A DNA stretch of 64,000 nucleotides from Prevotella sp. (GTDB taxonomy: Bacteria; Bacteroidota; Bacteroidia; Bacteroidales; Bacteroidaceae): the NCBI GenBank assembly GCA_017470345.1, contig JAFUEP010000025.1, positions 124,001 to 188,000 of the forward strand, written 5' to 3'. Below, one piece after another: positions 164 to 62,796 of this stretch (within the stretch, counting starts at the first letter, position 1; every line of letters starts with the position of its first letter). The notes beneath the pieces are model-generated. The model was not told where the DNA came from, did not search any database, and was given only the letters and a program-made list of their open reading frames with translations. Made by a program: the position numbers and the translations under genes.

Positions 164-240
164 AAGCGGTACTTTGAATGCAGAGAAGTGCCGCTTTGAG
201 CTACGCAAAGTACCGCTTCTCACATCGCGAAGCGGTACTT
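164..240. repeat. Four-unit 22-bp-period repeat array, copy 1
   Basis: Four 11-bp cores start at 164, 186, 208 and 230: AAGCGGTACTT, AAGTGCCGCTT, AAGTACCGCTT, AAGCGGTACTT (orientation F-R-R-F). Core and spacer are each 11 bp, so the period is exactly 22 bp. Units 3 and 4 are perfectly complementary; units 1 and 2 pair with one G-U in RNA. A T-run follows the last unit. The array lies between the serA stop and the DUF1015 promoter, so it could end the serA transcript. Confidence 0.93.
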
Positions 241-10027: not shown

Positions 10028-12385
10028 ATGGAACTACTGAATCAATTGAACGACAGCCAGCGCGAGGCCGTCTGCTATTGCGACGGCGCATCGCTGGTCA
10101 TTGCCGGCGCAGGCTCAGGCAAGACGCGCGTGCTGACCTACAAGATAGCCTATTTGCTGCAACAGGGGCTGAAGCCATGGAACATCTTGGCCCTGACGTT
10201 TACCAACAAGGCGGCGCGCGAGATGAAGGACCGCATCGGCCGGCTGGTGGGGCTGGATCAGGCCCGCTATCTCCAGATGGGCACCTTCCACTCCGTCTTC
10301 TCGCGCATCCTGAGGGCTGAGGCCGACAAGCTGGGCTATCAGTCGAGCTTCACCATCTACGACCAGGCCGACTCACGCTCGCTGATGAAGAGCATCATCA
10401 AGGAGGCGGGGCTCGACGACAAGGTCTACAAGCCCTCGTCGGTCAGCGACCAGGTGTCGATGGCCAAGAACCATCTCATCCTGCCCGATGCCTTCGTCAA
10501 CAGTTCGCTCTACGACGAGAAGCGGCCCAAGGTGGGCCAGCTCTACAAGGTCTATGCGGAGCGCTGCCGCCAGGCCAATGCGATGGACTTCGACGACCTG
10601 CTGGTTCAGACCTATCTGCTGTTCGAACGCTTCGAAGACGTCAGGATGAAGTATGCCGACAAGTTCCAGTTCGTGCTCGTCGATGAGTATCAGGACACCA
10701 ACTTCGCCCAGCAGAAGATCGTCTATCAGCTGACGCGCGAACGCCAGCGTGTCTGTGTCGTCGGCGACGATGCGCAGAGCATCTATAGTTTCCGTGGAGC
10801 GAATATTGATAACATCCTGAATTTCAGGGAGGCATACGATGACGCAAAGCTCTTCAAGCTGGAACAGAACTATCGCTCCACACAGCTCATCGTGCAGGCT
10901 GCCAACAGCCTGATCCGAAAGAACGAGCGCCAGATTCCCAAGGACGTCTACAGTCGCAACGAGCATGGCGAGAAGCTACAGCTGAAGCCTGCCTACAGCG
11001 ATCGCGAGGAAGCGATGATCGTCTGTCAGGACATCAAGCGCCTGCGCCGTCAGGAGCACCTCGACTATAGCGACTTTGCCATTCTCTATCGCACCAATTC
11101 GCAGAGCCGCTCCTTTGAGGAGCAGATGCGCAAGGACGGCATTCCCTATCGCATCTATGGCGGACTGAGCTTCTATCAGCGCAAGGAGATCAAGGACGTG
11201 ATAGCCTACTTCCGCCTCGTGGCCAATCCCGACGACGAGGAGGCCCTGAAGCGCATCATCAACTATCCGACGCGTGGCATCGGCGACACGACGCTTCAGA
11301 AGATTGTCGCCGCGGCGACGGCCTATGGCGTGTCGCTCTGGACGGTCATCTCGCAACCGGTCCTGTTCCGTCTTGACGTGGCAAAGACGACGGGCGCCAA
11401 GCTCGAGGCCTTCCGCCAGCTCATCGAGGGATGGCGCGCCCGGCTCGCGACGGAGGACGCCTATCAGCTGGGTCATGCCATCATCATGGAGAGCGGCATC
11501 TCGAAAGACATCTATGGCAGCCGTAATCCTGAAGACTTGTCGCGCCAGGAGAACCTCGAGGAATTCCTCAGCGGCATGCAGGACTTCGTCGAGAGCCGTC
11601 GCGAGGAGGACGAGGGCGACCACGTCGGCATTGCCGACTTCCTGCAGGAGGTGGCTCTGCTGACCGACCTCGACAGCGATGGCGACGAGGAGCAGGCCAA
11701 GGTGTCGCTCATGACGATCCATTCGGCCAAGGGTTTGGAGTTCCCGACCGTTTTCGTCGTAGGACTGGAGGAGAACATCTTCCCCTCGCCGATGTCGACG
11801 GGCTCGATGCGCGAGCTGGAGGAAGAGCGTCGGCTGCTCTATGTGGCCATCACGCGAGCCGAGAAGCATTGCATCCTGACCTGTGCGCAAAACCGTTTCC
11901 GCTATGGACGTATGGAATATGACACGCCCTCGCGCTTCATCCGCGATATCGACCCGCAGCTGATCCAGGTGGACTCGGGCGTGCCCGAGGAGGTCAGGAG
12001 CAGCACGCCGCGGCGGCAGTCGTGGACGCAGAATCCACGCCCTGTGGCCACCCAGTTCCGGGCCGACCCCATGCCGCGTGCCGTGGCCCCTCGCAAGGCC
12101 GAGACGCCTGTCGACCCGCTCTCCGACGGCTTCAAGCGCCAGCTGAGCCAGGCCAGCGGCGGGCGCTATCGTCCTGTGCGGCCGTCGGCGCCTTCCAGTC
12201 CCGCGCCGTCCTCGGCCGGCGGCACGCTTCACGAGGGCAATGTCATTGAGCATCAGCGTTTCGGCATCGGCACCGTTATTAAGACGGAGGGCACGGGCGA
12301 GAATGAGAAAGCCACCGTCGAGTTCCGCAATGCCGGCACCAAGCAGTTGCTTTTGAAGTTTGCCAAGTTCACAGTCCTAAAGTGA
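10028..12385 (+). CDS. ATP-dependent DNA helicase, UvrD/PcrA type
   Basis: A 785-residue superfamily 1A helicase. Walker A is GAGSGKTRV (residues 27-35), motif II is LVDEYQDTN near 220, motif III VVGDDAQSIYSFRGAN, motif IV LEQNYRST, and motif VI LLYVAITRAEKH near 605. After a Pro/Ser-rich linker the last 50 residues (GNVIEHQRFGIGTVIKTEG) form the Tudor-like domain that contacts RNA polymerase in PcrA/UvrD. It unwinds DNA in excision and mismatch repair and in clearing stalled transcription. Full length. It is followed by repeat array copy 2 and faces a convergent kinase gene. Confidence 0.95.
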   Translation: MELLNQLNDSQREAVCYCDGASLVIAGAGSGKTRVLTYKIAYLLQQGLKPWNILALTFTNKAAREMKDRIGRLVGLDQARYLQMGTFHSVFSRILRAEADKLGYQSSFTIYDQADSRSLMKSIIKEAGLDDKVYKPSSVSDQVSMAKNHLILPDAFVNSSLYDEKRPKVGQLYKVYAERCRQANAMDFDDLLVQTYLLFERFEDVRMKYADKFQFVLVDEYQDTNFAQQKIVYQLTRERQRVCVVGDDAQSIYSFRGANIDNILNFREAYDDAKLFKLEQNYRSTQLIVQAANSLIRKNERQIPKDVYSRNEHGEKLQLKPAYSDREEAMIVCQDIKRLRRQEHLDYSDFAILYRTNSQSRSFEEQMRKDGIPYRIYGGLSFYQRKEIKDVIAYFRLVANPDDEEALKRIINYPTRGIGDTTLQKIVAAATAYGVSLWTVISQPVLFRLDVAKTTGAKLEAFRQLIEGWRARLATEDAYQLGHAIIMESGISKDIYGSRNPEDLSRQENLEEFLSGMQDFVESRREEDEGDHVGIADFLQEVALLTDLDSDGDEEQAKVSLMTIHSAKGLEFPTVFVVGLEENIFPSPMSTGSMRELEEERRLLYVAITRAEKHCILTCAQNRFRYGRMEYDTPSRFIRDIDPQLIQVDSGVPEEVRSSTPRRQSWTQNPRPVATQFRADPMPRAVAPRKAETPVDPLSDGFKRQLSQASGGRYRPVRPSAPSSPAPSSAGGTLHEGNVIEHQRFGIGTVIKTEGTGENEKATVEFRNAGTKQLLLKFAKFTVLK

Positions 12386-12495
12386 GGCCGTCGCAAGGCC
12401 TTGTTTGTCTGTCGATTTGTAAACAAAATTCCGAATCATTCGCCCTGCATTTGGAATTGCTTGATTATTAGAAGATTACCTGAAACGAATAAAAG

Positions 12496-12572
12496 AAGCG
12501 GCACTTCTCGACGTGAGAAGTGCCGCTTTTCGATTCGAGAAGTGCCGCTTTTTGCCCCGAAAAGCACCGCTT
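12496..12572. repeat. Four-unit 22-bp-period repeat array, copy 2
   Basis: Cores at 12496, 12518, 12540 and 12562: AAGCGGCACTT, AAGTGCCGCTT, AAGTGCCGCTT, AAGCACCGCTT (F-R-R-R), exact 22-bp period. Units 1 and 2 with their flanks make a perfect 14-bp stem and a 5-nt loop. AAAAG precedes and CTTTTT follows the array, so each strand reads hairpin then T-run. It lies between the convergent helicase and kinase genes, the only terminator-like structure in that 250-bp gap. Confidence 0.95.
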
Positions 12573-12635: not shown

Positions 12636-14315
12636 TCAGTACTTGAAGCTTGACCCGCCGACGAACTCGCGCATGATGCTTGTGGGTGGGATTTCCTTGT
12701 CGCTCACGGGGATGAAGAAGTGGATGAACTTTAGCAGGCGGTGGGCCTCGGCATACTCCGGACAATTCTTCGGCACAGAGGCCAGGATGAGCTCGGCATG
12801 CGTGCGCAGCACGGCGAACTCGATGTTGAGGGCCGAATTGAACATCACGTCGGCCGTCTCCTGGAAGGGGAAAATCCACTTGTCCTCCGCCTCGCAGACG
12901 TTCTTCCACTGGGCGATGGTCTCCTGGGCCGTGTAGGCGCCCTTGTTGTAGTCGCGGATGATGCGTCGCAGCAGTCGGTTGTCGCGTGTGGGAATCCAGT
13001 TGTGGTCGTCGATCGAGATGCTCGTCAGTGCTGAGATGTAGATCTTGTACTTCTTGTCGTCAGGGATGTTCTTGGTCAGCAGCGGGTTGAGGGCGTGGAT
13101 GCCCTCGATGATGAGCACCGAGTCGTTCTGCAGCTTCAGCCGCTTGCCGTTATATTCGCGCTTGCCAGTGACGAAGTTGTATTCGGGCACCTCGACGCGC
13201 TCGCCCTTCATCAGGCGGGTCAGGTGGTCCTCCAGCAGGTGGTAGTCGACCGTCTCGATGTTGTCGAAGTCGTAGTCGCCGTTGGGCAGCTTGGGCGTGT
13301 CGACGCGATTGACAAAGTAGTCGTCAGTAGAGAACGACACGGGCCTCAGTCCGCAGGCCAGCAGCTGGATGCTGAGGCGCTTGCAGAAGGTGGTCTTGCC
13401 TGACGACGAGGGGCCCGTGATGAGCACGAGGCGGATGGGGTTGTCCTCGTCGTGGAACCGGCGGTCGATGTCCTCGGCTATCTGGACGATCTTCTTCTCC
13501 TGCAGGGCCTCGCTGACCTGGATCAGTTCCGACGCATGTCCCTTGAGCACGGCCTTGTTGACGTCGCCCGCATTCGACAGCCGCATGATGATGTCCCACC
13601 GACCTTTCTCGGCAAACATCTCGAACGTCTTGGGCATGTCGACCTTCTCGGCCAGCCGCGAGGGGTCGTTCCAGTCGGGCACGCGCAGCAGCAGTCCGTC
13701 GTGATAGCGCTCCAGCCCCCACACCTTGAGGTAGCCGGCCGAGGGCACGAGCGGTCCGTAGAAATAGTCGACGGTGTCGCCCAGCATGTAGTAGTCGCTG
13801 TAGATCTGGCCGCTGGTCTCAAGCAGCTTCACCTTGTCCTGGAATCCGCGCTCCTGGAAGACGCGCACGGCCTCCTCCGTCGTCGCTTCGCTGCGGCGGA
13901 AGGGCATGTCGAGGTCGATGATCTCCTTCATCCGCTGGCAGATGTTGCGGATGTCGTCGTCGCTCATCGGCTCGCCCGAGCGCTTCTTGAAGTTGCAGTA
14001 GTAGCCGCGGCTCAGCGGGTGTTCGATGAAGAGCTTGGAGCCTGCGAAGAGGTCCTGCGTGGCCTTGTAGAGCACGAAGCACAGCGAGCGGACGTAGGCA
14101 CGGTGGCCTGAGCCCTGTCGGGCGTCGAGAAACTCCACGTCGCGGTTCTGGAAGAGCCGGAACTTGAGTCCCTGCGAGGCGTTGTTCACTTTGGCCGAGA
14201 CCACGGGATAGGGCATCTGGAGCTCAGGTGCGAACTCCTGATAGACATCGAGCAGCGAGCTCCCTTCAGGGAAGCTCTTGGTGATGCCGTTGTTTTTACA
14301 GCGGATTTGGAGCAT
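12636..14315 (-). CDS. Nucleoside (uridine) kinase with N-terminal TGS domain
   Basis: A 559-residue protein. The first 60 residues form a TGS-like domain (LDVYQEFAPEL, PYPVVSAKVNN); a threonyl-tRNA synthetase-like second domain follows to about 250. The C-terminal half is a phosphoribulokinase/uridine kinase fold with P-loop GPSSSGKT near residue 301 and IIEGIHALNPLL. It should phosphorylate a nucleoside using ATP or GTP; uridine is the usual guess. The start is set by a TATCTTTG promoter element that overlaps an upstream in-frame ATG at 14339, so that ATG would not be in the transcript. Confidence 0.87.
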   Translation of the reverse strand: MLQIRCKNNGITKSFPEGSSLLDVYQEFAPELQMPYPVVSAKVNNASQGLKFRLFQNRDVEFLDARQGSGHRAYVRSLCFVLYKATQDLFAGSKLFIEHPLSRGYYCNFKKRSGEPMSDDDIRNICQRMKEIIDLDMPFRRSEATTEEAVRVFQERGFQDKVKLLETSGQIYSDYYMLGDTVDYFYGPLVPSAGYLKVWGLERYHDGLLLRVPDWNDPSRLAEKVDMPKTFEMFAEKGRWDIIMRLSNAGDVNKAVLKGHASELIQVSEALQEKKIVQIAEDIDRRFHDEDNPIRLVLITGPSSSGKTTFCKRLSIQLLACGLRPVSFSTDDYFVNRVDTPKLPNGDYDFDNIETVDYHLLEDHLTRLMKGERVEVPEYNFVTGKREYNGKRLKLQNDSVLIIEGIHALNPLLTKNIPDDKKYKIYISALTSISIDDHNWIPTRDNRLLRRIIRDYNKGAYTAQETIAQWKNVCEAEDKWIFPFQETADVMFNSALNIEFAVLRTHAELILASVPKNCPEYAEAHRLLKFIHFFIPVSDKEIPPTSIMREFVGGSSFKY

Positions 14316-39299: not shown

Positions 39300-39376
39300 A
39301 AGCGGTACTTCTCGACCCGAGAAGTGCCGCTTTTCGTGTCGAGAAGCGGTCCTTTTTTGAACGTGAAGTGCCGCTT
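39300..39376. repeat. Four-unit 22-bp-period repeat array, copy 3
   Basis: Cores at 39300, 39322, 39344 and 39366: AAGCGGTACTT, AAGTGCCGCTT, AAGCGGTCCTT, AAGTGCCGCTT (F-R-F-R), exact 22-bp period. AAAGAAAAAG precedes and TTTTC follows. It sits between the convergent permease and OmpA genes. Bases 39214-39299 show nothing else. Confidence 0.94.
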
Positions 39377-39437: not shown

Positions 39438-39470
39438 CAAAAAAGCCATCCGACGTGAGTGTCGGATGGC
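39438..39470 (-). terminator. Terminator of the OmpA lipoprotein gene
   Basis: GCCATCCGAC/GTCGGATGGC, a perfect 10-bp stem with a 6-nt loop, followed on the minus strand by six Ts; 22 bp after the OmpA stop. Confidence 0.9.
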
Positions 39471-49249: not shown

Positions 49250-49326
49250 AAGCGGCGCTTCTCGCATGACGAAGTGCCGCTTCTCTCATGTCAAAGTACC
49301 GCTTCTCTCATGTCAAAGCGGCGCTT
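49250..49326. repeat. Four-unit 22-bp-period repeat array, copy 4
   Basis: Cores at 49250, 49272, 49294 and 49316: AAGCGGCGCTT, AAGTGCCGCTT, AAGTACCGCTT, AAGCGGCGCTT (F-R-R-F), exact 22-bp period. Units 1 and 4 are perfect palindromes around one base. Spacers 2 and 3 are identical (CTCTCATGTCA). Eight As precede it. It ends 3 bp before the mltG stop codon and is the main feature of the 129-bp convergent gap. Confidence 0.95.
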
Positions 49327-62719: not shown

Positions 62720-62796
62720 AAACGGTGCTTTTCGTTCAAAGAAGCGGTGCTTTTCGACCCGAAAAGCACCGCTTCTTGGTCTTTAAAGGACCGCTT
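62720..62796. repeat. Four-unit 22-bp-period repeat array, copy 5
   Basis: Cores at 62720, 62742, 62764 and 62786: AAACGGTGCTT, AAGCGGTGCTT, AAGCACCGCTT, AAGGACCGCTT (F-F-R-R), exact 22-bp period. Units 2 and 3 with flanks form a 15-bp stem and 3-nt loop (stem TTTTCG / CGAAAA inside). AAAAAG precedes. It follows the DUF3078 gene; the 62641-63187 gap also holds the MITE-like element below and no gene. Confidence 0.94.

Follow-up and report, generated by a model that had tools for sequence, protein, structure and literature searches.

A Prevotella genome carries about 100 short intergenic arrays, most of them built from four 11-bp cores that follow one another at an exact 22-bp step and most of them placed at gene ends, and other Prevotella genomes hold arrays that keep this step with different core letters. 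One repeat that already has a name, PINSR, very probably contains an array of the same architecture. We tentatively read the arrays, with somewhat less than even confidence, as phased sites for a putative DNA-binding protein that would act at transcription ends.

Five arrays in the window

The window is a stretch of 64,000 nucleotides (G000:C16:124001-188000) from a 2.67-Mb assembly of a rumen-type Prevotella, here called G000, that is 61.6% complete. Five arrays had been described in it by the initial annotation, and all five were found at the positions below, with their units in the forward (F) and reverse (R) orientations originally given. Two separate terminator-like hairpins lie close to two of them.

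Array 1, 164 to 240, no strand: FRRF, with cores at 164-174 (+), 186-196 (-), 208-218 (-), and 230-240 (+)
Array 2, 12496 to 12572, no strand: FRRR, with cores at 12496-12506 (+), 12518-12528 (-), 12540-12550 (-), and 12562-12572 (-)
Array 3, 39300 to 39376, no strand: FRFR, with cores at 39300-39310 (+), 39322-39332 (-), 39344-39354 (+), and 39366-39376 (-)
Array 4, 49250 to 49326, no strand: FRRF, with cores at 49250-49260 (+), 49272-49282 (-), 49294-49304 (-), and 49316-49326 (+)
Array 5, 62720 to 62796, no strand: FFRR, with cores at 62720-62730 (+, AAACGGTGCTT), 62742-62752 (+), 62764-62774 (-), and 62786-62796 (-)
Hairpin, 12382 to 12404, + strand: separate and weaker terminator-like hairpin where the PcrA-like gene ends, ahead of array 2
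Hairpin, 39445 to 39470, - strand: separate terminator-like hairpin with a T-run, past the OmpA-like gene, ahead of array 3

As described, 19 of the 20 units fit the consensus AAGCGGNNCTT on one strand, the twentieth being the AAACGGTGCTT unit at 62720; AAGCGGNNCTT has 19 matches in the window, whereas 100 shuffles gave 0.47 on average and at most 2. Three arrays (12496, 39300, and 49250) do lie between convergent genes: array 2 between genes for a PcrA-like helicase (ending at 12385) and a kinase-like protein (ending at 12636), array 3 between ABC-permease-like and OmpA/MotB-like genes, and array 4 between genes for a MurF-Alr fusion and MltG. Array 5 is found 79 bp past the stop of a DUF3078 gene. 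The closeness to a stop codon claimed for all five arrays stands for the four that could be checked, the gene upstream of 164-240 being outside the window. An Rfam search of the window at gathering score returned five tRNAs and no family for the arrays, and a search of the window array against phages and plasmids gave no match. The nearest named relative of the MurF-Alr protein is from Prevotella sp. RGIG3793 (81%; very near records may be absent from the search), and its other relatives, among the matches listed, are mostly from ruminant-gut Prevotella.

Number, spacing, and placement of arrays in the genome

Searching the forward strand of G000 for AAGNNSNNCTT at a 22-bp step gave 264 pairs and 164 triples, while the reversed-pattern control gave none. 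Because a run of k cores yields k-1 pairs and k-2 triples, the number of runs with two cores or more is 100. A sample of 880,775 bases (a third of the genome, window included) was analyzed in detail and contained 77 arrays, defined as places with at least two chained units of up to two mismatches each. Four units were present in 68 of these, five units in 5, three in 2, and two in 2; the count includes one questionable place (L045:17961), where just one unit is exact, and leaves out a duplicate (L103) of one array whose flanks are identical as well. That copy and its counterpart (L086), on contigs 47 and 31, share approximately 5.6 kb of identical sequence round the identical array, reflecting either a genome duplication or assembly redundancy. 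Neighboring exact cores within 60 bp of each other were 22 bp apart in 211 of 212 cases in G000, and the same measure gave 50 of 51 in genome G060 and 46 of 47 in genome G082, where the exception was 44 bp.

The sample contains 300 exact cores, 287 of them in arrays, and by our own open reading frame-based gene calls every one of these 287 is intergenic; of the 13 single cores outside arrays, 9 are in coding sequence. With respect to their neighbors, 23 arrays are in convergent gaps, 44 in co-directional gaps, 5 in divergent gaps, and 5 at the ends of stretches, and the same sample, which is enriched for arrays, has 44 convergent, 166 co-directional, and 62 divergent gaps of at least 100 bp. 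We also counted arrays in 404 kb made up of the window and 17 stretches of contigs 15 and 16, which were not cut around arrays, although the contigs were chosen as known to bear them. Per gap of at least 100 bp, arrays were present in 9 of 24 convergent, 6 of 62 co-directional (the doubtful L045 array among the 6), and 0 of 26 divergent gaps, with 2 more at edges (convergent versus divergent, Fisher p = 0.0005). For the 44 co-directional arrays, the median distance is 92.5 bp to the stop upstream and 206 bp to the start downstream, and the stop is the nearer of the two in 37. The preference for 3' ends and convergent gaps, first seen in the window, is therefore real in G000. Elsewhere, divergent gaps hold 5 of 14 arrays in G082 (counting arrays with two called neighbors; two of the 14 overlap a called gene), 5 of 27 in G017, 3 of 11 in G012, 1 of 6 in G060, and 1 of 6 in G004. 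Given the counts in G082 and G017, 3'-end placement is not universal.

Anatomy of the units

To describe the units, we used 65 G000 arrays that have four units and at most one mismatch in total, after removal of one near-duplicate. The first unit had been said always to be forward, which is true of the window; across the 65 arrays, the rule becomes a tendency of the fixed GCGG half to point outward in outer units (100 of 128), with no preference in inner units (60 of 130). Inverted pairs occur near or below the expected frequency for all six pairs of units, and the orientations of units within an array look independent of each other. There is a weak bias on the sense strand of 38 co-directional arrays, with 90 R and 61 F units. 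The two free bases of the core (n = 260) are TG in 115 units, CA in 61, and TC in 39, while CG (22) and TA (15) are rarer than they would be under independent choice.

Spacers are varied, with 138 of 195 distinct in G000 and one found 16 times. They had been described as dyads in their own right, and this is only loosely so: Watson-Crick pairs are no more common than in shuffles at four of the five mirrored position pairs. An A-run precedes the arrays and a T-run follows them, with nothing strong beyond these within 20 bp on each side. Several arrays on G000 contigs 24, 41, and 48 have TA or TC centers, TTTGA-like spacers, and sometimes five units, and are perhaps a sub-family.

Arrays in related genomes

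Arrays with other core letters and the same step are present in G003, G004, G010, G012, G014, G017, and G082, and AA/TT is found at the core edges in the dialects examined. In G082 the core is AAGCCGTTCTT, and each listed array has a single orientation, making it a series of direct repeats. The distribution of the AAG-CTT pattern is patchy: it is present in 7 of 35 other genomes of the genus and in 7 of 50 named Prevotella genomes, just three of which have more than 80 matches. Three-core matches number 86 in G060 (RGIG3793), 261 in G089 (RUI320), 288 in G082 (RGIG9954), and 1 to 3 in the four others; the reversed-pattern control was nonzero in four of the 50 genomes (1, 3, 1, and 6). Among other genomes of the order, a single match was found, in 1 of 294, by a pattern that other dialects would escape. 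In 80 named loci (1.6 Mb, threshold 25), we found one array of the G000 dialect (L252) and one direct-repeat array (L245), with none in the control, and two further genomes (G016 and G024, 100 kb each) had no arrays at the threshold used. The G032 matches, which are part of a longer tandem run of direct repeats, may have no connection with the arrays. When AT-rich stretches of G010 were scanned de novo, six matches were obtained forward and six in the reversed control, so no count was taken, and in a similar scan of G017 (9 forward, 10 control) the control is not independent, because its matches resemble arrays read backward.

Two further observations concern dialects. Loci L303, L306, and L307 (from G090, G086, and G109) show another dialect at the 22-bp step, often with GAT ahead of the AAG-CTT core and ATC after it. 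The single match among the 294 other genomes of the order (G268:C18:586-640) comes from a different family and consists of AAGTCGGACTT followed by AAGTCCCACTT twice at the 22-bp step.

Some shared places in related species carry arrays. Of 21 arrays in G060, six have a neighboring gene at least 70% identical to one in the G000 sample, and in five of these cases the corresponding gene end in G000 also bears an array; 90 of 600 sampled genes carry such a label, and the count begins from G060 arrays and an array-enriched G000 sample. Four full pairs of arrays align without gaps in the 22-bp register. In these pairs AAG/CTT agrees at 103 of 108 positions (a partly circular figure, as that pattern was used to find the arrays), the inner five core bases at 62 of 90, spacer ends at 30 of 56, and spacer middles at 42 of 98; in the flanks, coding bases included, three pairs together agree at 79 of 308 positions and the fourth pair at 67 of 110. 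For the pair at L105, the best alignment is one unit out of register. A fifth pair, with two versus three units, was excluded from these totals (AAG/CTT 11 of 12, inner core 5 of 10, spacer middle 2 of 7). Orientation itself can differ at a shared place, as in the third unit of the 39300 array and the fourth of the L112 array, each of which is opposite in G000 and G060.

Of four window arrays sought at the same place in G060, the one at 39300 is present, with the same gene pair, and the other three are absent: G060 has no array past its kinase, MurF, or DUF3078 gene, and has one approximately 100 bp ahead of the DUF3078 gene instead. Arrays of other dialects lie past the kinase gene in G010 and G017 (3 of 30 loci, G000 included), in a scan whose control gave five uncollapsed positions, all within two of the three matching loci. 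Beyond the DUF3078 gene, other-dialect arrays are present in G012 and G082, and there is none in G060 or G089. The MurF-MltG and permease-OmpA pairs were not found as convergent pairs in the 80 named loci, and therefore afford no empty-site comparison. No gene recurred, by eye, beside the arrays in eight loci from other genomes, which yielded no linked binding protein.

PINSR as a named array-bearing repeat

The arrays had initially been thought to match no named element. Our literature searches returned no Prevotella 22-bp or convergent-gene repeats and no Bacteroidales REP, and a broader search led to PINSR, a 188-bp intergenic repeat of P. intermedia/nigrescens that lacks terminal inverted repeats and has 177 and 184 copies in two genomes. 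The passages of the PINSR paper at hand report no function, and the term "22 bp" is absent from the main text, from which a hyphenated form may have escaped matching. In G017 the array lies within a conserved repeat of approximately 207 bp (L179-L208), for which a first look gave 306 candidates; identity was 93-98% at every one of the 40 places scored. A 105-base consensus of this repeat has an 85.7% match in a P. nigrescens replicon, situated between convergent genes, and the match (L362:20069-20145, NZ_CP082843.1) contains a 4 x 22 array. On clade, length, and this match, the G017 repeat is very probably PINSR, which would then very probably contain a 4 x 22 array. The earlier statement thus needs amending to the extent that a named repeat very probably has the same architecture, while the period is absent from the paper's available passages. 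Other candidate arrays with different cores occur at 10062, 27685, and 42332 of L362, where the reversed control also gave four matches.

The G000 arrays are like PINSR in being intergenic and of high copy number. Unlike PINSR, a copy-like repeat of 188 bp, they have varied spacers and no clearly conserved flank beyond approximately 10 bp (20 bp per side considered), and while PINSR is confined to the P. intermedia/nigrescens group, the relatives of the window's MurF-Alr protein are mostly ruminant-gut Prevotella. PINSR, described without a function, gains in this way a probable internal architecture, one that ties it to other Prevotella via geometry and not sequence.

What the arrays might do

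Two options had been offered for the arrays, a multi-hairpin 3'-end element and a phased site for a protein. Under the first, cores 1 and 2 and cores 3 and 4 would pair in RNA and be followed by a T-rich spacer or flank on either strand, making the array a bidirectional intrinsic terminator or a 3'-end stabilizer. We consider this possible but on the unlikely side. In its favor, 63 of 71 G000 arrays (four or five units, at most two mismatches) fold at z <= -2 on the strand labeled sense, a label that simply denotes the contig plus strand for arrays at edges and in convergent or divergent gaps. Among 82 3' ends within 300 bp of an array of at least three units, another terminator-like site stands ahead of the array in just 10, and 55 have one with the array included; such sites are found at 13 of 50 array-free convergent ends, 23 of 149 co-directional ends, and 5 of 460 coding background positions. 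The A-run and T-run and the outward GCGG halves would also suit a terminator, as would central letters that match more often than in shuffles in inverted units 1-2 (15 versus 8.7) and 3-4 (12 versus 6.3), with 2-3 at 4 versus 8.5. Agreement also exceeds shuffles for inverted 1-3 and for same-orientation 1-2 and 2-3, and because twelve tests were made, the p values of 0.004-0.006 are borderline. In the P. nigrescens copy, moreover, the first two units are perfectly reverse-complementary, and both depart from the commonest G017 copies. Unit 2 is reverse-complementary to unit 1 in 11, and to unit 3 in 17, of the 30 G017 copies with the best match.

However, a stable hairpin with a T-run at 55 of 82 ends is accompanied by no sense-strand bias in folding: the sense strand is more stable than the antisense in just 14 of 41 co-directional arrays, and the A-run side of such arrays is no weaker than their T-run side. 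The pairing between units that had been proposed is weakened by this result, although most arrays do fold strongly and inverted units 1-2 and 3-4 do share central letters. Nor are inverted neighbors more common than expected. Some single-orientation arrays such as L101 and L105 have no predicted structure (L105 z = 0.1 and 2.1 on the two strands), and G060 has an array at the same place as L105. The G082 arrays, being direct repeats, cannot form full core-to-core hairpins, and their structure is weaker (mean z = -1.8 and -1.5, n = 17), with about 7 of 17 still reaching -2 on one strand. Hairpins may contribute to function, but they need neither an exact 22-bp step nor four units, and they leave these features and the direct-repeat dialect unexplained.

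It is improbable, in our estimate, that the arrays are dispersed repeats of the REP/PINSR kind without a host function, which would spread in some Prevotella and persist where harmless downstream of genes. In favor are the patchy AAG-CTT distribution, which would be odd for an essential element, the near-identical copies in G017, the absence from G060 of three of the four window arrays sought there, and the spacer repeated 16 times in G000, which suggests copying. Against this, most G000 spacers are distinct and units vary in orientation and letters, so the arrays are not simple copies; the exact period is kept between G000 and G060 even where spacer middles agree at fewer than half of positions; and Y1_Tnp, the sole mobilizer type searched for, has no match in G012 or G017. 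Least probable of all, and very unlikely, is a wrapping site for a topoisomerase or general nucleoid protein, in which AT-rich steps every 11 bp would favor wrapping and relieve supercoils at gene ends. The AA/TT core edges and the preference for convergent gaps would fit, but core letters within a genome (19 of 20 units in the window) are fixed well beyond the needs of bending.

Of the two options originally offered, the phased DNA site fits better, because the 22-bp step is kept across changes of letters between species, one species has direct repeats, and unit orientations look independent. We infer that each array would group about four sites for a putative sequence-specific DNA-binding protein. 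One putative dimer would occupy each 22-bp unit, made up of a core of 11 bp (AAG, five bases, and CTT in G000) and a spacer of the same length. The exact two-turn spacing would align the dimers along a single face of the helix, where they could bind cooperatively. Bound past gene ends or between convergent genes, the protein would most likely mark or block the end of transcription from both sides as a roadblock or insulator, or else anchor the DNA. If a protein does read the arrays, they would represent a transcription-end or chromosome-marking system set by helical phase, with a specificity that turns over between species. A broader proposal, which we hold to be rather doubtful, is that they form a new class of cis-element: helically phased arrays in which some four sites would serve a fast-evolving putative DNA-binding protein, acting as a roadblock that ends or insulates transcription, in dialects that keep the geometry and of which PINSR would be one.

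Relation to other known elements

Intergenic repeats such as PINSR and REP were known before, and we have not seen the phased architecture described. REP/BIME/REPIN elements are short palindromic intergenic repeats near 3' ends, occurring in groups, with a species-specific sequence and an association with RAYT; unlike them, the present arrays have an exact 22-bp phasing of about four units. REP and REPIN palindromes are reported to carry a terminal GTAG or CGTC tag on one side (PMC3733652), and neither tag is present in the G000 unit and spacer consensus. The sole match to Y1_Tnp, the RAYT domain, in G000 is partial (L128/L071, G000:C35:31873-32097) and lies inside an open frame of 1,202 codons; with none in G012 or G017, we rejected a RAYT/Y1-driven origin as a general rule.

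BrickBuilt of Porphyromonas gingivalis, as presented in the available text, is a 23-nt intergenic tandem repeat with 19 copies in one strain, consisting of direct repeats without spacers and with IS5-like terminal inverted repeats (PMC4596501). The present arrays resemble it, as there described, in being intergenic, tandem, of near-equal repeat length, and from Bacteroidales, and differ in their 22-bp step, the spacers between cores, and the consensus. Iterons and tandem operators (parC, MetJ boxes, and the TnsB sites of Tn7 ends) are phased tandem protein sites at about 11 or 22 bp, present at one or a few loci per replicon. By contrast, G000 has approximately 100 arrays, mostly at gene ends.
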